Source: Acidimicrobiia bacterium | GTDB lineage: Bacteria; Actinomycetota; Acidimicrobiia; Acidimicrobiales; CAIXPF01 | Assembly (NCBI GenBank): GCA_009377505.1 | Contig: WHTX01000011.1 | Span: 1 to 36,552 of the forward strand | DNA length: 36,552 bases | Direction of reading: 5' to 3' | Part shown: positions 10,257 through 22,866 of the stretch, in pieces | Layout: every line of letters begins with the position of its first letter | Position numbering within the stretch: the stretch's first letter is position 1 | Program-made: the position numbers and the translations under genes | Notes under the pieces: model-generated | The model's input: the letters and a program-made list of their open reading frames with translations, nothing else | Database searches by the model: none | What the model was told of the DNA's origin: nothing

Positions 10257-10559
10257 TCAGGTCCCTGCGGTCCCCCCGGCCGCGTCCTCCTCCGGAGGGG
10301 GCCCTTCCCGGAGGAGCTGCTCGGCGAACTGGCGCAGGCGGACGAGCACGTCGCTGGGGACGTCGTCTCGGCGGGCGAGGCTGGCCTTGATCGCGGTGTA
10401 GGCGACGACTTCCAGCCCACAGCGCCGGCAGTCCTCGAGGTGGCGGAGGATGCGGCGGGCGGTGAGGTCGTCGACCTCCCCGTCGAGGTACCGCTGCAGG
10501 CGGCGCCCGACCTGCATGCAGTTCATGGGCCGCTCGCTGCGCGGGCGGAAAAGGCTCAT
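10257..10559 (-). CDS. Zinc-finger anti-sigma factor (ZAS-like)
   Basis: MSLFRPRSERPMNCMQVGRRLQRYLDGEVDDLTARRILRHLEDCRRCGLEV; HX3CX2C; start overlaps the sigma factor stop (ATGA). Confidence 0.8.
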   Translation of the reverse strand: MSLFRPRSERPMNCMQVGRRLQRYLDGEVDDLTARRILRHLEDCRRCGLEVVAYTAIKASLARRDDVPSDVLVRLRQFAEQLLREGPPPEEDAAGGTAGT

Positions 10560-11116
10560 CGGGTGCTCCTGGGGGCGAGACCGGCGGCGGCCAGTCGCTG
10601 TCGGATCCGGCGGCGGGCGCGGTGCAGCCGGCTCATGATCGTGCCGGTCGGCACGCCGAGGACGTGAGCGGCCTCCGCGTAACTGAGACCGTCGATGTCG
10701 ACGAGCTCGACGGCGCGCCGGAATGCGTCGGGCAGGGCTTTGAAGGCGTCCTCGACGACGGCGTCGAACGTGGCGCCCACGACGAGGGACTCCACGCCCT
10801 GGCTCTCGTCGGCGGTGCCGGCTTCCGTCGCCATCGTGCGGTCGGGGTCGTCGAGCAGCTCGGGGCGACGGCGGCGCGTCCGGTTGATCTGTGTGTTGCG
10901 CAGGATGGTCAACAGCCAGGCTCGTGGGTGGGCGCCGTCGAAACGTTCGATCCCCCGGTACGCGCGCACCAGCGTGTCCTGGACGAGGTCCTCGGCGTCG
11001 GCGTGGTGGGGGGTGAGCGTGCGCGCCACCCGGAGCAGCACCTCGATCTCGGGCAGTACGTACTTGGCGAACCGCTCGTCGGAGCCGGCCTCTGGGGTGC
11101 TCGCCGAGCCCGTCAT
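10556..11116 (-). CDS. ECF-type RNA polymerase sigma factor
   Basis: ADAEDLVQDTLVRAYRGIERFDGAHPRAWLLTILRNTQINRTRRR...LPDAFRRAVELVDIDGLSYAEAAHVLGVPTGTIMSRLHRARRRIRQRL. Confidence 0.93.
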   Translation of the reverse strand: MTGSASTPEAGSDERFAKYVLPEIEVLLRVARTLTPHHADAEDLVQDTLVRAYRGIERFDGAHPRAWLLTILRNTQINRTRRRRPELLDDPDRTMATEAGTADESQGVESLVVGATFDAVVEDAFKALPDAFRRAVELVDIDGLSYAEAAHVLGVPTGTIMSRLHRARRRIRQRLAAAGLAPRSTR

Positions 11117-11190
11117 CGAGGACGGAACCCGGTCGGGTGAAGGACCATTCCCGGGAAGGCCCCCGTCCGGTCATCGTGTTCCCGACGGTG

Positions 11191-11469
11191 ATGCACTGCC
11201 TCGCGCGCCGCCGCATGAAGCACACCGTGTCAGCGTTCCTCGACGGCGAGCTCGAACCCTCCGTCATGGCGAAGGTGGAAGCGCACTTGCGCCGCTGCTG
11301 GGAGTGCAGCAGCGACTACGAGCTGGGTCGCCTGGTGAAGTCATCGCTGCGCAACCTCGCCACCCGCGACCGGGACGCGCTCGCGGCGATGCGCCTCCGC
11401 CGGTTCGCCGCCCGCCTCGGGCGGAGAGGTACCGGCGGGCGTCCTGGCCCGCGCGGGCGGGCTTCGTGA
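11191..11469 (+). CDS. Second zinc-finger (anti-sigma-like) protein
   Basis: MKHTVSAFLDGELEPSVMAKVEAHLRRCWECSSDYELGRLVKSSLR; HX3CX2C; start uncertain (11137, 11191 or 11215). Confidence 0.65.
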   Translation: MHCLARRRMKHTVSAFLDGELEPSVMAKVEAHLRRCWECSSDYELGRLVKSSLRNLATRDRDALAAMRLRRFAARLGRRGTGGRPGPRGRAS

Positions 11470-12475: not shown

Positions 12476-12994
12476 TCAGCCGGATGGCTCGAGGTCCTCG
12501 GGCAGGCAGTACCAGGTGGTCTCGTAGCCGACGACGAAGAGCCCGTCGTCGTCGTAGACGGGCTCTTCGAAGGGCGAGAGGAAGGTGCCCTCCGGGCAGC
12601 GGGCACCCAGGATGGGCCCCATCCCCCTGGACTGCGCCTTGGGGGCGGCGGCGAGGGCCCGGCCGTCGGGCACCGAGGCCTCGACGTTGTCGTCGCAGTA
12701 GCCGTGCGTGGGCTCGCCGGCCCCGTTGACCTCGTCGTAGACGAAGATGCCTGCGCACAGGTCGCCGACGACCAGGCACTGGAGGTCGCCGTGGCACCAC
12801 GTCACGACGCCCACCTGGTCGCCCTCGGTGGTGAGGCCCCCGGGCCCCCCAGGAGGCACGGTGGTGGTCGGCGCAGCGACGGCCGAGGCCGCCGCCCGCG
12901 GGGCGGCCGTCGCGCTGGCGCTCAGCCCGATCACGGCCATAGCCGGCGCCAGCACGCCCAATGCGGTGAGCTTCACTACCCGGTCCAGTTGCAT
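12476..12994 (-). CDS. Secreted Cys-containing protein, function unknown
   Basis: Signal peptide MQLDRVVKLTALGVLAPAMAVIGLSASATAAP; mature part with about seven Cys (WCHGDLQC...DLC...YCDD...RCPEG...WYC); SD GAGGAG upstream. Confidence 0.7.
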   Translation of the reverse strand: MQLDRVVKLTALGVLAPAMAVIGLSASATAAPRAAASAVAAPTTTVPPGGPGGLTTEGDQVGVVTWCHGDLQCLVVGDLCAGIFVYDEVNGAGEPTHGYCDDNVEASVPDGRALAAAPKAQSRGMGPILGARCPEGTFLSPFEEPVYDDDGLFVVGYETTWYCLPEDLEPSG

Positions 12995-13042
12995 CGCGCT
13001 CTCCTCGTCTCGTCGGTGTGCGGCCCCACATGGACCACGCGG

Positions 13043-13071
13043 CGAGTGAAGGACGGGTGAGGTTCGGGTGA
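13043..13071. promoter_or_regulatory. Candidate SARP-binding direct repeats (three heptamers at 11-bp spacing)
   Basis: CGAGTGA (13043) AGGA CGGGTGA (13054) GGTT CGGGTGA (13065), in the divergent intergenic region. Confidence 0.55.
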
Positions 13072-13155
13072 GGCCCGGCACAGCCCGTTGGGGAGGCCGG
13101 GGAACGAGGGATGTTCCCCATCCGCCGTGCGCGCCCGCTCGCCATGCTGGCCTGC

Positions 13156-14433
13156 ATGCCGCCAGGTGTGGTCCGCACCTCCAAGCCCGCGGCTCGCGTC
13201 GAGCTCGGGCTGCTGGGGCCGCTCTCCGTCTGCGTCGAGGGGCGCCCGACCGCGGTGCCGGGTCGTCTCGCCCGGGCGTTGCTCGCCATCCTCGCGCTCG
13301 ACACCGGACGGTCCCTGTCCGTCGCCGCCATCATCGAGCGCCTGTGGGACGAGCCCCCGACGAGCGCGAGGAACACGCTGCAGACCTATGTGGCGCACCT
13401 CCGGCGGGTGCTCGAACCATGGCGGGCGCCAGGTGGCCCGAACGCCGTCCTCGAGACGGCGGGCGACGGCTACCGTCTCGTTGGTTCCGCCGTGGCCGTC
13501 GACGTGGCGGACTTCGAGGAGCTCATGGTCGCGGCTCGAACCGCCGACGAACCGGCCGAGCAGCTGGCGACGGCCGAAACGGCGCTGGCGTTGTGGCGGG
13601 GGGAACCCCTCGCCGACCTCGGCCCCGTGCGCTACGCCCACGGCGAACGGGCGCGCCTCGGCGAGCTCGAACGCGATGCGCATCAGTTGCGGGCGGAGGC
13701 GCTCATGGCCCTCGGCCATTCCCATGCGGCGATCGCCGCCGCCGACGCCGCACTCGGCGCGAACCCCTACGACGAGGCCATGTGGGGCCTCGGCATCCTC
13801 GCCCGCTACCGGGCGGGCCGGCCCGCCGATGCATTGGCCGCCTACCACCGGGCACGCGACGTCCTCGCCACCGACCTGGGGCTCGAGCCGTCAGCCCCCC
13901 TGCGGGCGCTCGAGGCTGCCGTGCTCGCCCACGACCCGACCTTGCTCCCCGGCCCCGAGCGCCCGCCGCGTGCGACCGCCAGGCCGACCTGTCGGTCAGC
14001 CCCCCTCAGGGTCGTCGTCGGGGAGGACGACCTCCTCGTGCGCGAGGGGCTGCTGCGGTTGCTCGCCCGCTCCGGCGACGTCACCGTCGTTGCGGCGACG
14101 GCGACCTACGACGAGGCCCTCGACGCCGTCGAGCGTCACCGACCGGACGTGCTGATGACCGACATCAGGATGCCCCCACACCAACGTGACGAAGGCATCC
14201 GCATCGCCGGCGAGCTGCGCGTGCGCCGACCCGACGTCGGAGTGGTCCTGCTCTCCCAGCTCGCCGACCCGCACTACGCACGTCAGGTGTTCATGCCCAC
14301 GGCGACCCGGCGCGGCTACCTCCTCAAGGAGCACGTCGGGCGACCGGACCAGTTGCTCACCGCGCTGCTGACCGTGGCGATCGTCGACCTCCTGGTCACT
14401 TCCGGTGAAGGCGAGGGCCGGCACCGGCCATGA
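13156..14433 (+). CDS. SARP-family regulator (wHTH + BTAD) fused to a C-terminal response-regulator receiver domain
   Basis: VELGLLGPLSVCVEGRPTAVPGRLARALLAILAL...NTLQTYVAHLRRVLEP; BTAD ADALAAYHRARDVLATDLGLEPSAPLRALEAAVL; REC VVVGEDDLLVREGLLRLL...DVLMTDIRMPP...YLLKEHV. ORF open from 13111. Confidence 0.85.
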   Translation: MPPGVVRTSKPAARVELGLLGPLSVCVEGRPTAVPGRLARALLAILALDTGRSLSVAAIIERLWDEPPTSARNTLQTYVAHLRRVLEPWRAPGGPNAVLETAGDGYRLVGSAVAVDVADFEELMVAARTADEPAEQLATAETALALWRGEPLADLGPVRYAHGERARLGELERDAHQLRAEALMALGHSHAAIAAADAALGANPYDEAMWGLGILARYRAGRPADALAAYHRARDVLATDLGLEPSAPLRALEAAVLAHDPTLLPGPERPPRATARPTCRSAPLRVVVGEDDLLVREGLLRLLARSGDVTVVAATATYDEALDAVERHRPDVLMTDIRMPPHQRDEGIRIAGELRVRRPDVGVVLLSQLADPHYARQVFMPTATRRGYLLKEHVGRPDQLLTALLTVAIVDLLVTSGEGEGRHRP

Positions 14434-15635
14434 GCGCCGAGGTGCGCCGCCACCCGATCGAGACGTTCCTCCGCTACGACCAGGCCACCTGCGGCTTGGG
14501 GGTCGCGGCGCTGTTGGCCGTCCACGTTTTCCTCGCCCCCCATCCGTTGCTGGTGGTCGAAGCCGTGGCCGTGGCCGTGGGCGGCGCGGCCCTGGGGGCG
14601 GCGCGGCGGCCGTTGGGGCGCGACGACCCCGCCCGGGCCGTCTCCGTCATCGCTGTCGTGAGCTGGCTCACCCTGCTGGCCCCCGCTGCCGTCACCCCCT
14701 TCGTCGAACCCGTCCTCGTCGTCGCCGCCTTGCTGCCCGTCGTGTTGGCGATCCCCTACGTGAGCCCACGCCACCTGGCCGTGCTCGTGGTCGGCTCGAC
14801 GAGCGTGGCCGGGGCCGTGGCCGTCATCACCGCCGGGGCGGGGGGCGGTGTCATGGACCAACTGCCAGGCTGGCTCCCCACCGTGGTCGTCGCCGCCTTC
14901 CTCCCTGCGGCGACCGGGATGATCGGGCTTCTCAGCGGTCACAACCACCAGGCGATGGCAGCCAGCCGGGCACGGCTGGTCGCCAGCACGGACCAGGCTC
15001 GGCGCGGGATCGAACGTGACTTGCACGACGGCGCCCAGCAGCGGCTCGTGTCGGTGGCCATGCAGCTGGGGCTGGCGAGGTCGCTCGTGGAGGAGGACCC
15101 CGACGGGGCCGTCGAGCTGCTGGCGGACCTGGAAGCGCAGGCGCACCTCGCCCTTGCGGAGCTGCGGGACCTCTGCCTCGGTGTCTACCCCGCTGCGCTC
15201 ACGGACTTCGGCCTCGCCGCGGCGCTGACGGCCGCGGCGCGGCCGCACGGGCGACGATGCCGGCTCGAGATGTGCGACGTCGGCCGGCTCCCCGAGGCCA
15301 CCGAGAGCGCCGTCTACTTCTCCTGCCTCGAGGCGCTGCAGAACGCGGTGAAGCACGCCGGGCCCGACGCGGTCATCACCATCCGCTGCGAGCGGACCCG
15401 ACCCGACCGGCTGCGCTTCTCCGTGCGCGACGACGGGGCCGGCTTCGACCCGACCCGGGCCCGAGCCGGCGCCGGGCTGGCCAACATCGCCGACCGGGTC
15501 AGCGCGATGGGAGGCAACGCCCGCATCACCTCGGCCCCCGGGCACGGGACCTGCGTCGCTGGCGAGGTCCCGCTGCCCCAGCGCGGCCGGCCCCACGGCG
15601 CCGGCGCGGTCATCGCTGGCGAAGCGCAGACGTGA
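14430..15635 (+). CDS. Membrane sensor histidine kinase, HisKA_3 (NarX/DesK-like) family
   Basis: Multiple N-terminal TM segments; IERDLHDGAQQRLVSVAMQLGLA H-box; CLEALQNAVKHA N-box; DDGAGFD; ATGA overlap with regulator. Confidence 0.9.
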   Translation: MSAEVRRHPIETFLRYDQATCGLGVAALLAVHVFLAPHPLLVVEAVAVAVGGAALGAARRPLGRDDPARAVSVIAVVSWLTLLAPAAVTPFVEPVLVVAALLPVVLAIPYVSPRHLAVLVVGSTSVAGAVAVITAGAGGGVMDQLPGWLPTVVVAAFLPAATGMIGLLSGHNHQAMAASRARLVASTDQARRGIERDLHDGAQQRLVSVAMQLGLARSLVEEDPDGAVELLADLEAQAHLALAELRDLCLGVYPAALTDFGLAAALTAAARPHGRRCRLEMCDVGRLPEATESAVYFSCLEALQNAVKHAGPDAVITIRCERTRPDRLRFSVRDDGAGFDPTRARAGAGLANIADRVSAMGGNARITSAPGHGTCVAGEVPLPQRGRPHGAGAVIAGEAQT

Positions 15636-16333: not shown

Positions 16334-17896
16334 TCAGCCGCAGCGGGAGCCGGCCTGGTCCCAGGCGCACAGGGGTGTGCGGCCGGGCAGGTCGGCGATG
16401 CTGTCCTGCACCCAGGTCTGCTGCTCGGCGTCCCAGTACGAGACGTCGGAGCCCTCCACGAGGTAGGCGTCCTCGTTGCCGTCCATGTTGAAGGTGATAC
16501 CGGGCAGCAGCATCGGGTGGGTCATCTCCAGGCTGCGCAGCGCCAGGATGAGGTTCGTGCGGGTCAGGCCGCCGTCGAGTTGGCCGGCGATCTGGAGCGC
16601 CTGGCTCAGGGCCCAGCTGTAGTACAGGCCGAGGTTGTACGACGGCGTGAGCTCGTAGCCAGCCTCGTCGATGAACTCCCGGGCAGCGACGATGAACGGG
16701 TCGTCGTCGTACTCTTCGGTCAGCGCGTCCTTGAGGCCACCGCCCACGCTCCACCAGCCGTCGGAGTCCTCGCCGACCACGTCCCGGGTCACCGGCCCGG
16801 TCGCCTTGCACGCCGAGCTCATGAACTTGTAGTCGACGCTCTCCTTCATGCCGTTCAACGCCGACTCGGTCACGAACTGCGTGCACGTCGACCCGGTGCT
16901 CATGCCGATGAACACGTCGGGGTCCTCGGCGGCGAGGGTCGTCATCTCGTCCTTCAGCGTCGCCGCCGCGGGCTCGAAGGACTCGGAGACGTACTCGATG
17001 TCGTCCTTGCGGGGGGAGTCGGCGAAGTACGCCTCGAGGGCGGCGTGGTACGAGGCGCCGAAGTCGTTGTTCATCCGCAGGCTCGCCACCTTGGCCTTCC
17101 CGCCGAGCTCGTCGAGGTGCTGCTCGACGAAGACGCCCCAGATGACCGCCTCGGTCGAGTAAGAGATCGAGCTCGCCGTCGTCCACGGGTGGTTGACCGG
17201 GTCGCCGAAGGCAGGGTGGCCGGACGCCACGAGGGGCTGGGGGATGCAACGCTCGTTGAGCTTGTCGTAGGTGCGCAACGTGCTCGGCGTGCCCAACGTC
17301 TCCACAGCGAAGACCTTCTCGGAGTCGATGAGCTCGTCGACGAGGGGGATCGTGCGGGCCGGGTCGTAGGCGTCGTCCCGCAGTAGCATCCTCACCTGGC
17401 GGGTCTTGTCGTTGACGTCGGTGTAGACGCCCTGCTCGTTGTAGTGGCGGAACAACGCGTCGTGCGCCCGGCCGATGCCGCCGGCCTCGGCGTTCGGGCC
17501 CGACTGGGCGACGGGGTAGCCGATCTTCACCTCGGTGTCGGTCATGCCCTCGGTGTCGCTCCAGCTCGCAGGGCACCGGGCGAGGTCGATCGTGAAGCCG
17601 CCCGGCCCGACGAGCTGGGAACCGTCCTCCTTCACGCCCCAGCCGTTCTCCTGGATGCGGGCGACGACGGCGGCGCGCTCTTCGGCCCACAGCGCCTCCC
17701 ACCCCTCCATCGAGGTGGGCTGGTCGGCGGGCCCGTCGCCTGCCGTGGTGGCCGGGGCCGCGGTGCTGGCCGGCGCCGCCGTGGTGGCCGTCTGCGCCGT
17801 CGTGCTCGCGCTGTCGTCGGTCCCGTCCGAGCTGCACGCCGTGACACCGATGAGGCCCAGCACGAGCGCGCCGCAGCCAAGGACACGTGTCCTCAT
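16334..17896 (-). CDS. ABC transporter substrate-binding lipoprotein, branched-chain amino acid (Liv/Peripla_BP_6) type
   Basis: MRTRVLGCGALVLGLIGVTACSSDG lipobox; VKIGYPVAQSGPNAEAGG; RMLLRDDAYDPARTIPLVDELIDSEKVFAV. Confidence 0.88.
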   Translation of the reverse strand: MRTRVLGCGALVLGLIGVTACSSDGTDDSASTTAQTATTAAPASTAAPATTAGDGPADQPTSMEGWEALWAEERAAVVARIQENGWGVKEDGSQLVGPGGFTIDLARCPASWSDTEGMTDTEVKIGYPVAQSGPNAEAGGIGRAHDALFRHYNEQGVYTDVNDKTRQVRMLLRDDAYDPARTIPLVDELIDSEKVFAVETLGTPSTLRTYDKLNERCIPQPLVASGHPAFGDPVNHPWTTASSISYSTEAVIWGVFVEQHLDELGGKAKVASLRMNNDFGASYHAALEAYFADSPRKDDIEYVSESFEPAAATLKDEMTTLAAEDPDVFIGMSTGSTCTQFVTESALNGMKESVDYKFMSSACKATGPVTRDVVGEDSDGWWSVGGGLKDALTEEYDDDPFIVAAREFIDEAGYELTPSYNLGLYYSWALSQALQIAGQLDGGLTRTNLILALRSLEMTHPMLLPGITFNMDGNEDAYLVEGSDVSYWDAEQQTWVQDSIADLPGRTPLCAWDQAGSRCG

Positions 17897-17907
17897 GACG
17901 TTCTCCC

Positions 17908-17942
17908 CTGCAGGCCCGTCGTGGGGGGGGTACGGCCTGCAG
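17908..17942 (-). promoter_or_regulatory. 5'-UTR inverted repeat upstream of SBP gene
   Basis: CTGCAGGCC (17908-17916) / GGCCTGCAG (17934-17942), perfect 9 bp, adjacent to the SD-like GGGGAG. Confidence 0.5.
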
Positions 17943-18227
17943 AGCGGGGACCCTACAACTCGCCGAACCGCCATTCACGTCACCTTGACATACTGTCAGC
18001 GCCACCTGCCGGGCCGGGCGCGATGCGGAGGTAGGGTTCGCCGGCGTGCCTCGGCCTCGGCCTCGGGGTGGGATGCTTGCCCTGATCTTTTCATGAGGCT
18101 CGCGGCCAGGCCCCTGACCAGGACGGCAGCTGGCCCGGGCGAGCGATGCGGGCAATTGCCTGACCAGCTCGAGCGAGCTCGAATGAAAGATTGGGGCTTG
18201 GAGTGACGTCAGCGACCTGGGGGGACC

Positions 18228-19160: not shown

Positions 19161-20705
19161 TCAGCGGCAGCGCGCCTCGGACTGGTCCCAGGCGCAGTTG
19201 GGGGTCTGCACGTCGAGCTCGACGATGCTGTCCTGCACCCAGGCCTGCTCGTCGGTGCTCCAGTACGAGATGTCGGAGCCCTCGAGCATGAAGGCGTCGG
19301 CGTTGCCGTCCATCTTGACCTTCAGGCCCCCGACCAGCATCGGGTTCGTCATGTCGATGCTGCGCAGCGCCAGGATCAGGTTGCTGCGGGTGAGGCCGCC
19401 GTCGAGCTGACCGGCGATCTGCAGGCCCTGGGCCAGCGTCCAACCGTAGTAGAGGCCGAGGTTGTAGGACTGGCTCACCTCACGGTCGATATCGGCGACC
19501 CACTGGCGGGCGGCCACCGCGAAGGGATCGTCGTCGTAGGCCTCGACGTCTACGTCCTTGAGGGCGCCTCCGACGGTCCACCAGCCGTCGGAGGCGTCGC
19601 CGAGGTCCTGGACCGGGGTCGTGACCTTGCACGCCGAGCTGAGGAACTTGTAGGGCACGTCCTCCTTCATGCCGTTGATCGCCGCCTCGCTGACCATCTG
19701 GCTGCAGGACGACCCCGTCGTCATGGCGATGAACATGTCGGGCGACCCGGCGGCGAGGGTGGTCATCTCGTCCTTCACCGTCGCCGCCGTCGGCTCGATC
19801 GTCTCCGAGACGTACTCGATGTCGTCCTTGTGCTCGGAGGTCTCGAGGTAGGCGGTCAGCGCAGCGTGGTAGGAGGCGCCGAAGTCGCTGTTGATGCGCA
19901 GCGCGGCGATCTTGGCCTGGCCGCCGAGCTCGTCGAGGCGCTCCTCGAGGAAGGTGCCCCACAGGACGGCTTCGGTGGCGTAGTTGATCGAGCTGGTCGT
20001 GGTCCACGGGTGGTTGACCGGGTCGCCGAACGCCGGGTGCCCGCTCCCCGGCAGGACCTGGGGGATGCAGCGCTGGTTCAGCTTCTCGTAGGTGCGCAGG
20101 GTGCTGGGCGAGCCGGTCGTCTCGATGGCGAAGACCCGTTCGGAGTCGATCAGCTCGTCGACGAGGGGGATCGTGCGGGCCGCGTCGTAGGCGTCGTCGC
20201 GCAGGAACATCGTGACGTTGCGGGTCTTGCCGTTGACGTCGGTGAACGCGCCTTGCGCGTTGTAGTGGGCGAAGAGCGCCTCCTGGGAGTAGCCGAGGCC
20301 GCCCGACTCGGCCGCCGGGCCCGACTGTGGCAGCGGATAGCCGATCTTGATCTCCGTGTCGGTCAGCCCCTCGGTGTCGCTCCAGCCGGCGGCGCAGGCG
20401 GACAGGTCGATGGTGAAGCCCTCGGGCCCCGTCAGCTGCGTCCCGTCGGCCGACTTGCCCCAGCCGTTCTCCTCGATCCGAGCGACGACGGCGGCCCGCT
20501 CCTCGGCCCAGAGCGCCTCCCACGCCTCCATGGAGGCTGGCCCGTCGTTCGTCCCGCCCACACCGGCGGCGGTCGACGACGTCGAGTCCACCTTCCCTGC
20601 GCTGGTCGCCGCGCCTCCGGACGTTTCGCTGTCGTCACCGCCGCACGCCGTGGCGGCGCTGACGGCGGCCACGAGCACGACTGCGGCCAAGGTGCGCGAG
20701 ACCAT
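19161..20705 (-). CDS. ABC transporter substrate-binding lipoprotein, Liv type; close paralogue of the protein at 16334-17896
   Basis: MVSRTLAAVVLVAAVSAATACGGDD lipobox; IKIGYPLPQSGPAAESGG; long near-identical blocks with the first SBP. Confidence 0.88.
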   Translation of the reverse strand: MVSRTLAAVVLVAAVSAATACGGDDSETSGGAATSAGKVDSTSSTAAGVGGTNDGPASMEAWEALWAEERAAVVARIEENGWGKSADGTQLTGPEGFTIDLSACAAGWSDTEGLTDTEIKIGYPLPQSGPAAESGGLGYSQEALFAHYNAQGAFTDVNGKTRNVTMFLRDDAYDAARTIPLVDELIDSERVFAIETTGSPSTLRTYEKLNQRCIPQVLPGSGHPAFGDPVNHPWTTTSSINYATEAVLWGTFLEERLDELGGQAKIAALRINSDFGASYHAALTAYLETSEHKDDIEYVSETIEPTAATVKDEMTTLAAGSPDMFIAMTTGSSCSQMVSEAAINGMKEDVPYKFLSSACKVTTPVQDLGDASDGWWTVGGALKDVDVEAYDDDPFAVAARQWVADIDREVSQSYNLGLYYGWTLAQGLQIAGQLDGGLTRSNLILALRSIDMTNPMLVGGLKVKMDGNADAFMLEGSDISYWSTDEQAWVQDSIVELDVQTPNCAWDQSEARCR

Positions 20706-20734
20706 CGGTCCTCCCCCGAGGGCGGGCTGTCTCA

Positions 20735-20761
20735 GGTGCGATCGCCCCCGACGATCGCACC
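20735..20761 (-). promoter_or_regulatory. 5'-UTR inverted repeat upstream of the SBP paralogue
   Basis: GGTGCGATCG (20735-20744) / CGATCGCACC (20752-20761), perfect 10 bp, 7-nt spacer. Confidence 0.5.
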
Positions 20762-20898
20762 GGCCCGGACGGCCCCGGACCCTAGTGCCATGCCCACCAA
20801 CGTTCGCCGCGTTCAGGCCGCGCGCGGGGCGCCTGCCGGCCCGCGCCACGCGACCCGCTCGCCGCCATGTCCCTGCGCGCGCGAGGATCAGAGGAGAA

Positions 20899-22866
20899 AT
20901 GAGCGCCGATTCAACCTCCGAGGGGGAACCCGTGGCCCACACGACGGCATCCGGAGCAGACGAGCAGCAGTTCACCGATGCGGTGGCCAGCGCCAACATC
21001 CCGACGCTGCTGATGGTGCTCGTCCAGCTCACGGGCGAGCTCCACTGGCTCGAGGAGCCGTACCGGCCGAAGCGCCAGTCGGGCATGGGCGACAACGACA
21101 GCGGAGGGCTCGCCCCCGAGCACCAGGCCGAGGTCCGCGACGCGGCCCTCGAGGCGATCCTCGCTTGGCGGGCCGGGCGGCCGGTGGCCATCTCCGAGCC
21201 CTCCGAGGAGCTGCTGGTCAAGATGCTCAGCGTCGCCATGGGCGAGCGGGTGCCCGAGGAGTACGGGTCCTTCACCGCCGCCCAGCTCGGCACGAAGTCG
21301 CTGCTGGCCGAGCCGATCGCCGTGCCCGAGGGCTTCAAGGTCCTGGTCATCGGCGCCGGCGTGTCCGGCATCTGCACGGCCGTCAACCTGCAGGCCGCCG
21401 GCGTGCCCTTCGAGATCATCGAGCGCAACCCCGAGGTCGGCGGCGTCTGGTGGGAGAACAAGTACCCGGGCGCCGGCGTCGACACGCCGAACCACCTCTA
21501 CTCGTTCTCCTTCGCCGAGTACGACTGGAACGCGTACTTCTGCCTGCGCGACGAGCTGCACGGCTACCTCGAGCACGTCGCCGACCACTTCGACCTGCGC
21601 AAGTACATCACCTTCGACACCGCGGTCGAGCGCATCACCTACCACGAGGCCGCCCAGTCCTGGTCGGTGGAGACGCGTGACGCGAAGGGCAACGCCGAGG
21701 TACGCGAGGCCACCGCCGTGATCAGCGCGGCGGGGCTCTTCAACCCTCCGGTCGAGCCGAACATCCCCGGCCTCGACAGCTGGGCCGGCGACCGGTGGCA
21801 CTCCGCCCGCTGGCCCGACGACAAGAGCATCGCCGGCAAGCGGGTGGCGATCATCGGCAACGGCGCCAGCTGCATGCAGATCGCCCCGGAGATCCAGGAC
21901 GACGTCGAGTCGCTCACCATCTACCAGCGGTCGAACCACTGGGCGGCACCCTTCGAGCAGTTCCGCAAGCCGGTGCCCGACGCCCTGCGCTTCCTGTTCC
22001 GCGAGTGCCCGCTGTACCGCGCCTGGTACCGGGTTCGCCTGGGGTGGACGTTCAACGACCGCATCCACTCGGCCTTGCACAAGGACCCGAACTGGGAGCA
22101 CCCGGAGCGCTCGCTCAACGCCCAGAACGATGCCCACCGGGCCTACTTCACCAAGTACGTCACCGAGGAGCTGGGCGACAAGGCCGACGAGCTGCTGCCC
22201 AAGGTGCTGCCCACCTACCCGCCCTTCGGCAAGCGCATGCTCATGGACAACGGCTGGTACCGCATGCTGCGCAACCCGAAGGTCGAGCTGGTCGACGACC
22301 GCATCGACCACATCGAGCCGAACCGCATCGTCACCGTCGACGGCATCCCCCGCGAGGCCGAGACGCTCGTGCTCGCCACCGGGTTCGACGTGCTCCGGGT
22401 CGTCAACACCTACGAGACGGTCGGCCGCGACGGGCAGACCCTGCGCGAGGCGTGGGAGGACGACAATGCCCAGGCCTACATGGGCACCGTGGTCCCGGGC
22501 TTCCCGAACTACTTCGTGCTCTACGGCCCCAACCTGCAGCCCGGCCACGGCGGCAGCCTCATCTTCGTGGTCGAGATGCAGGTGCGCTACATCATGGACA
22601 TGCTGGCCAAGATGGCCGACCAGGGCCTGGGCGCGGTCGAGGTCCGCGAGGACGTGTGCCGACGGTACAACGAGGTCGTCGACGCCGAGCACGAGAACAT
22701 GGTGTGGACCCACCCCGGCATGTCGACCTACTACCGCAACGACCGCGGCCGCATCGTGATCAACTCGCCGTTCCGCAACGTCGACTTCTTCGACATGACC
22801 CGTGAGGTCGACCTCGACGAGTACGACATCGAGCCCCAGCGGCAGGCCGAGCTCGTCGCCGACTGA
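20899..22866 (+). CDS. FAD-dependent monooxygenase, Baeyer-Villiger (BVMO) type with an N-terminal extension
   Basis: VLVIGAGVSGICTAVNLQAAGVPFEIIERNPEVGGVWWENKYPGAGVDTPNHLYSFSF; GDRWHSARWPDD BVMO-like motif; VAIIGNGASCMQIAPEI. Confidence 0.9.
   Translation: MSADSTSEGEPVAHTTASGADEQQFTDAVASANIPTLLMVLVQLTGELHWLEEPYRPKRQSGMGDNDSGGLAPEHQAEVRDAALEAILAWRAGRPVAISEPSEELLVKMLSVAMGERVPEEYGSFTAAQLGTKSLLAEPIAVPEGFKVLVIGAGVSGICTAVNLQAAGVPFEIIERNPEVGGVWWENKYPGAGVDTPNHLYSFSFAEYDWNAYFCLRDELHGYLEHVADHFDLRKYITFDTAVERITYHEAAQSWSVETRDAKGNAEVREATAVISAAGLFNPPVEPNIPGLDSWAGDRWHSARWPDDKSIAGKRVAIIGNGASCMQIAPEIQDDVESLTIYQRSNHWAAPFEQFRKPVPDALRFLFRECPLYRAWYRVRLGWTFNDRIHSALHKDPNWEHPERSLNAQNDAHRAYFTKYVTEELGDKADELLPKVLPTYPPFGKRMLMDNGWYRMLRNPKVELVDDRIDHIEPNRIVTVDGIPREAETLVLATGFDVLRVVNTYETVGRDGQTLREAWEDDNAQAYMGTVVPGFPNYFVLYGPNLQPGHGGSLIFVVEMQVRYIMDMLAKMADQGLGAVEVREDVCRRYNEVVDAEHENMVWTHPGMSTYYRNDRGRIVINSPFRNVDFFDMTREVDLDEYDIEPQRQAELVAD

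Follow-up and report, generated by a model that had tools for sequence, protein, structure and literature searches.

A candidate three-heptamer SARP operator between a receiver-fused SARP gene and a divergent secreted-protein gene

A repeat array in a divergent intergenic stretch

The window (the whole stretch of DNA analysed, 36,552 nucleotides) holds a SARP gene with a C-terminal receiver (SARP-REC) and a small secreted-protein gene that diverge from a 116-bp intergenic stretch, within which lies a short array of direct repeats. The features are as follows:

12476..12994, minus strand: small protein of 172 aa with a signal-peptide-like N-terminus; the divergent gene and likely target
13002..13007, minus strand: GAGGAG, Shine-Dalgarno-like, shortly upstream of the start at 12994
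13043..13071, minus strand: heptamer triplet TCACCCG-aacc-TCACCCG-tcct-TCACTCG, 11-bp period; putative SARP operator
13054..13073, plus strand: CGGGTGAGG twice in direct orientation, all 9 bp identical, at period 11; core pair of the putative operator
13111..14433, plus strand: SARP-REC gene with an OmpR-type DNA-binding domain, a BTAD and a C-terminal receiver (Pfam PF00486, PF03704, PF00072)
14430..15635, plus strand: HisKA_3/HATPase sensor kinase, the presumed partner; overlaps the SARP-REC stop codon (ATGA)

The preliminary description of this DNA had placed heptamers CGAGTGA, CGGGTGA and CGGGTGA at 13043, 13054 and 13065, and the letters of 13043-13071 are indeed exactly CGAGTGA-AGGA-CGGGTGA-GGTT-CGGGTGA. 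The perfect part of the array is longer than it had reported: CGGGTGAGG occurs at 13054-13062 and again at 13065-13073, with the heptamer at 13043 one mismatch away from this core pair. This is the sole period-11 heptamer triple with at most one mismatch in the 36.5-kb window (dinucleotide-shuffle mean 0.09), and a matching triple arose in 0 of 20,000 shuffles of the intergenic stretch. Since chance alone should produce about one triplet of some period from 8 to 25 in a window of this size, the significance of the array rests on its place and on its period of 11. The intergenic position alone is no evidence of function, because the repeats place TGA in all three plus-strand frames, which keeps similar arrays out of genes trivially.

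In the organism's own 5.35-Mb genome, the three-heptamer pattern has no second site with two or fewer mismatches, and a regulon search yielded one further exact heptamer pair only (C283:17864-17881; L091, 1501-1518). This pair, which could be due to chance, lies about 100 bp upstream of a gene for a secreted right-handed beta-helix protein, with the opposite orientation to the gene. We rejected the same word as the sign of a regulon across the order: it is found in 34 of 397 genomes, about twice as many as a reversed-pattern control, and mostly in unrelated contexts. A word in common does not imply a regulator in common. Arrays of four to five CGGGTGA/CGAGTGA copies at an 11-bp period occur at G048:C66:7491-7552 (L116) and at G030:C317:5068-5118 (L103); the G030 array sits between ScpB-like and pseudouridine-synthase-like genes, and the neighbours in both genomes appear to be unrelated to SARPs.

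Elsewhere in the window, an ECF sigma factor gene (10556-11116, minus strand) has small cysteine-containing anti-sigma-like reading frames on both sides (10257-11469). Two similar periplasmic substrate-binding proteins, the first of which matches Peripla_BP_6, are encoded on the minus strand at 16334-17974 and 19161-21485, and between them is a plus-strand luciferase-like oxidoreductase reading frame.

The divergent gene and its promoter region

The 172-aa product of the divergent gene has no family match in Pfam or NCBIfam. Its start at 12994 and the GAGGAG sequence, both named in the preliminary description, are present as reported. Small secreted proteins in two distant genomes, G084 and G141 (L052; L053), are related to this product in their C-terminal part; the common block (window 12476-12700) centres around YDDxGLFVVxxExxWxCxPxDLEPxG and has no Pfam match. 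The two relatives lie in other contexts, with neither 11-bp repeats nor an adjoining SARP-REC gene.

The sequence that had been proposed as the -10 element, TCCATG, agrees with TANNNT at the first base only and is not recognisable as such. Indeed, we found no recognisable -10 or -35 element or promoter-like pair on either strand of the intergenic stretch, and no -10 at AfsR-like spacing on the plus strand. A SARP operator would be expected to cover or stand in for the -35, with the -10 following within a few bases. Poor -10 elements are frequent in known SARP promoters (PMC10936776). The minus strand, which carries the TCA core, faces the secreted-protein gene; here the AfsR geometry would predict a start site near 13023, some 28 bases upstream of the ATG that GAGGAG precedes. 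Reading the direction from a fixed -10 spacing was an approach that we dropped, as such a spacing gave no signal in either direction among 38 positive regions of relatives.

A SARP with a receiver beside a histidine kinase

The SARP-REC product, of 440 aa, has the N-terminal OmpR-type domain followed by a BTAD that defines the SARP family (PF00486 and PF03704 above cut-off, with matches to AfsR and EmbR). Its best solved relatives in the PDB are EmbR and AfsR for the DNA-binding/BTAD part and NarL-type receivers for the last part. It also has the marks of a two-component response regulator, in that residues 301-416 match PF00072 and a HisKA_3/HATPase gene overlaps its own; direct reading of the sequence shows intact acidic residues in the receiver, together with the Asp in TDIRMP and the Lys in LLKEH. 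A second full-length BTAD-receiver fusion was absent from overlapping samples of 100, 396 and 398 genomes (relatives, class and phylum), none of the plasmid records covers 80% of the protein, and the genome samples searched for relatives contained no orthologous SARP-REC/secreted pair.

The true start of SARP-REC may be 13111, 13147 or 13159. A perfect 7-bp inverted repeat, GGGGAAC-GAGGGAT-GTTCCCC (window 13099-13119), spans the ATG at 13111 and makes this codon doubtful as the start. The inverted repeat could be a second, dyad operator; a hairpin over the start was rejected, since it folds no better than shuffles.

Similarities to known operators

Known SARP operators are heptameric direct repeats with an 11-bp period, in three copies in several cases (ActII-ORF4, DnrI, PimR), and in the case of PimR the operator separates the regulator gene from its target (PMC10972967, PMC5930380). 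The window matches this description on both counts: two or three heptameric direct repeats at an 11-bp period, found here as an exact triplet, and a position in the promoter region adjoining a SARP gene, here the divergent stretch upstream of SARP-REC. The main PimR operator (pimR-pimM of Streptomyces natalensis; PMC5930380) is likewise a set of three heptamers in direct repeat, separated by 4-bp spacers and placed upstream of a target gene next to the SARP gene. It differs from the window in its heptamer, CGGCAAG, in its regulator, a SARP-LAL, and in its target, which codes for a PAS-LuxR activator instead of a secreted protein (PMC5930380). EmbR of Mycobacterium tuberculosis (PDB 2FEZ) is the solved structure closest to the DNA-binding and BTAD part (E 1e-33) and, like the window protein, is a SARP with a C-terminal signalling module; that module is an FHA domain in EmbR, whereas it is a receiver beside a histidine kinase gene in the window protein.

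The AfsR box of afsS (CGTT(T/C)ATCGNN; PMC10936776, PMC10972967) shares with the window its 11-bp units, a TCA-like core and, in the regulator, an OmpR-type domain with the conserved recognition-helix threonine, but it consists of two 11-bp repeats rather than three. AfsR also differs from SARP-REC in having NOD and TPR domains and in being acted on by Ser/Thr kinases. Within its DNA complex, the contact of AfsR Thr88 is with the C base pair of the TCA core and that of Arg92 with the T two positions ahead of this C (PMC10936776). The window protein keeps T88 (LQTYVAHLRRVL against VRTYASRLRKVL), has His in place of the base-contacting Arg92 and does not keep Q48, so its binding specificity is not predictable. 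Where Arg92 contacts T, the three window repeats have C, C and T; together with the His, these bases would be consistent with a shifted specificity.

11-bp repeats at SARP genes across the class

We surveyed the 200 bp upstream of the DNA-binding-domain start in 158 BTAD genes, all but two of them belonging to the order and class and those two to other parts of the phylum, all strand-oriented, as a first set of 98 and a second set of 60 that was fetched separately. Exact runs of at least 8 bp at period 11 are present in 21/158 of these BTAD/SARP upstream regions, where about 0.8 are expected. The first set contributes 11/98 (shuffle mean 0.48, maximum 3), and the second, independent set replicates this result with 10/60 (shuffle mean 0.33, maximum 2 in 200 shuffles). 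All other periods from 8 to 23 give only 0-4 regions with runs of this length; control windows 400-600 bp further upstream give 4/152, and windows inside genes 0/38. Heptamer triplets with at most two mismatches are likewise enriched, in 9 regions of the first set and 10 of the second, compared to 0.26 and 0.13 expected.

The frequency of repeats differs with the orientation of the neighbouring gene. Repeats of at least 7 bp at period 11 occur upstream of 30/82 divergent but only 2/55 codirectional SARP genes (Fisher p = 2.7e-6), with orientation called by a codon-position GC heuristic for the genes with a classifiable neighbour. The arrangement in the window is of the divergent kind, and its repeats lie at -138 from the DNA-binding-domain start, slightly farther than in positive relatives, where the range is -27 to -127. 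The lack of repeats at codirectional SARP genes may have the simple reason that these genes are inside operons and need no promoter of their own. No clear 11-bp repeats were found at the other SARP genes examined in the organism's own genome.

The divergent partners, judged from sequence alone, appear varied: secreted proteins, lipoproteins, an ABC transporter, and methyltransferase-like and metallo-beta-lactamase-like proteins. Secreted targets did not hold up as a rule, with secreted-looking partners at 10/27 loci with repeats and 18/65 without, a difference that is not significant (some loci are represented by the wrong flank). Several apparently unrelated divergent partners (L237, L242, L251, L256) have a similar leader near their start, such as MQTMTRP, MTMQTME or MTMTMQST, perhaps a shared translation-start element.

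The repeat words themselves differ, and each SARP appears to have its own, for example TGCTGCAGGAC, GTTGCAAGGTG and GCTGACGGCCC. An 11-bp model learned from the SARP repeats of the class gives a CGCTGACGG-like unit (some training loci entered by the wrong flank); in reverse complement this unit reads CCGTCAGCG, similar to the AfsR box CGTT(T/C)ATCGNN of PMC10972967. The window unit scores poorly against the CGCTGACGG-like motif and shares its TCA core on the minus strand.

A model for the switch, and alternatives to it

The class-wide enrichment of period-11 repeats at SARP genes, mostly at divergent pairs, and the fit of the window to this architecture make a SARP operator the likely identity of the array. 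Judging from its sequence, the triplet is very probably a switch where the neighbouring SARP regulator would bind. We assign a probability of roughly 70% to its being an operator of the SARP type, placed where the promoters of the 12994 gene and SARP-REC diverge and working by the kinase-receiver mechanism outlined below. The preliminary description had also called the site a SARP operator, and that part is strengthened by the enrichment upstream of SARP genes, found almost only at divergent ones, whereas the -10 element that accompanied it is not supported. The target that it proposed, the 12994 gene, would fit both the divergent rule and the AfsR-box TCA core on the minus strand.

In the proposed mechanism, the HisKA_3 kinase (14430-15635) would phosphorylate the C-terminal receiver of the SARP-REC protein. 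The OmpR-type domains would then line up along the DNA, each on one 11-bp unit and in successive major grooves, and the bound SARP-REC would bring RNA polymerase to a promoter whose -10 is poor. The secreted-protein gene would be the favoured target, and the same site may also let the SARP-REC/kinase operon regulate itself. What the analysis shows directly is the repeats with their rarity, the domains of the proteins and the link of 11-bp repeats to divergent SARP genes across the class. We infer the binding by SARP-REC, the control by phosphorylation, the direction of activation and the target. More tentatively, with odds somewhat short of even, a two-component-output SARP (DNA-binding domain, BTAD and receiver, plus a HisKA_3 kinase) may switch the divergent secreted-protein gene through the three-heptamer operator, as one case of a class-wide divergent rule for 11-bp repeats that can be read from sequence.

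A considerably less probable explanation is that the operator mainly serves the SARP-REC/kinase operon, leaving the secreted-protein gene as a bystander. In relatives the repeats are close to where the SARP gene starts, at -27 to -127 relative to the DNA-binding domain, which speaks for such autoregulation, as does the occurrence of the learned motif in both orientations about equally (18 and 16, some loci entered by the wrong flank), which does not single out the divergent gene. However, autoregulation would also require repeats upstream of codirectional SARP genes, where they are nearly absent (2/55); furthermore, the strand with the AfsR-like TCA core points to the 12994 gene and the plus strand has no -10 at AfsR-like spacing. 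The divergent bias favours an operator that would serve the divergent gene, alone or together with autoregulation.

It is improbable that the site is a PHO-box-like operator of PhoP, or of another OmpR-family response regulator, rather than of the neighbouring SARP. The PHO box, the target of an OmpR-family regulator, is similarly made up of direct repeats with 11-nt units, and PhoP specificity overlaps that of AfsR (PMC7866108); this 11-bp geometry is common to both proteins, whose sites overlap at afsS (PMC10972967, PMC7866108), and the minus-strand YTCACYCG resembles GTTCACC. But the window site does not contain tandem GKTCAYYYRSG-like units: its units are without the GTTCA start of PHO-box units, and its best dimer, CCTCACCCGTC CTTCACTCGCC, scores 16 of 22, a value reached by 25% of shuffles. 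The GTTCA start is present upstream of a pstS-like gene in the same genome, where an array dimer scores 18 of 22, and the enrichment of 11-bp repeats was found at SARP genes. This PHO-box-like array, CGTTCAACGCT CGTTCACCTCC GCGCCACCTCC (C79, L269), lies about 270 bp upstream of the start of the PstS-family match and includes GTTCAACGCTC GTTCACCTCCG.

Chance or slippage yielding a short tandem array without regulatory function is an equally poor explanation: about one triplet of some period from 8 to 25 is expected per window, and unrelated arrays of the same word lie between unrelated genes in other genomes of the order (G030, G048), but the period is exactly the 11 bp of SARP spacing, the array adjoins a SARP gene where an operator would be expected, no match arises in 20,000 intergenic shuffles, and 11-bp repeats are associated with SARP genes across the class.

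Implications

As an operator of the SARP type, the array would be one like many others; what stands out is the SARP fused to a receiver and accompanied by its own kinase, along with the divergent-operator rule across the class. Most of what is known about SARPs comes from the antibiotic clusters of Streptomyces. Our survey indicates that the SARP genes of a poorly studied class often face their neighbour across an 11-bp-repeat operator, such that operators and their likely targets could be predicted from sequence. What the window contributes to this picture is a SARP that a histidine kinase apparently controls directly.
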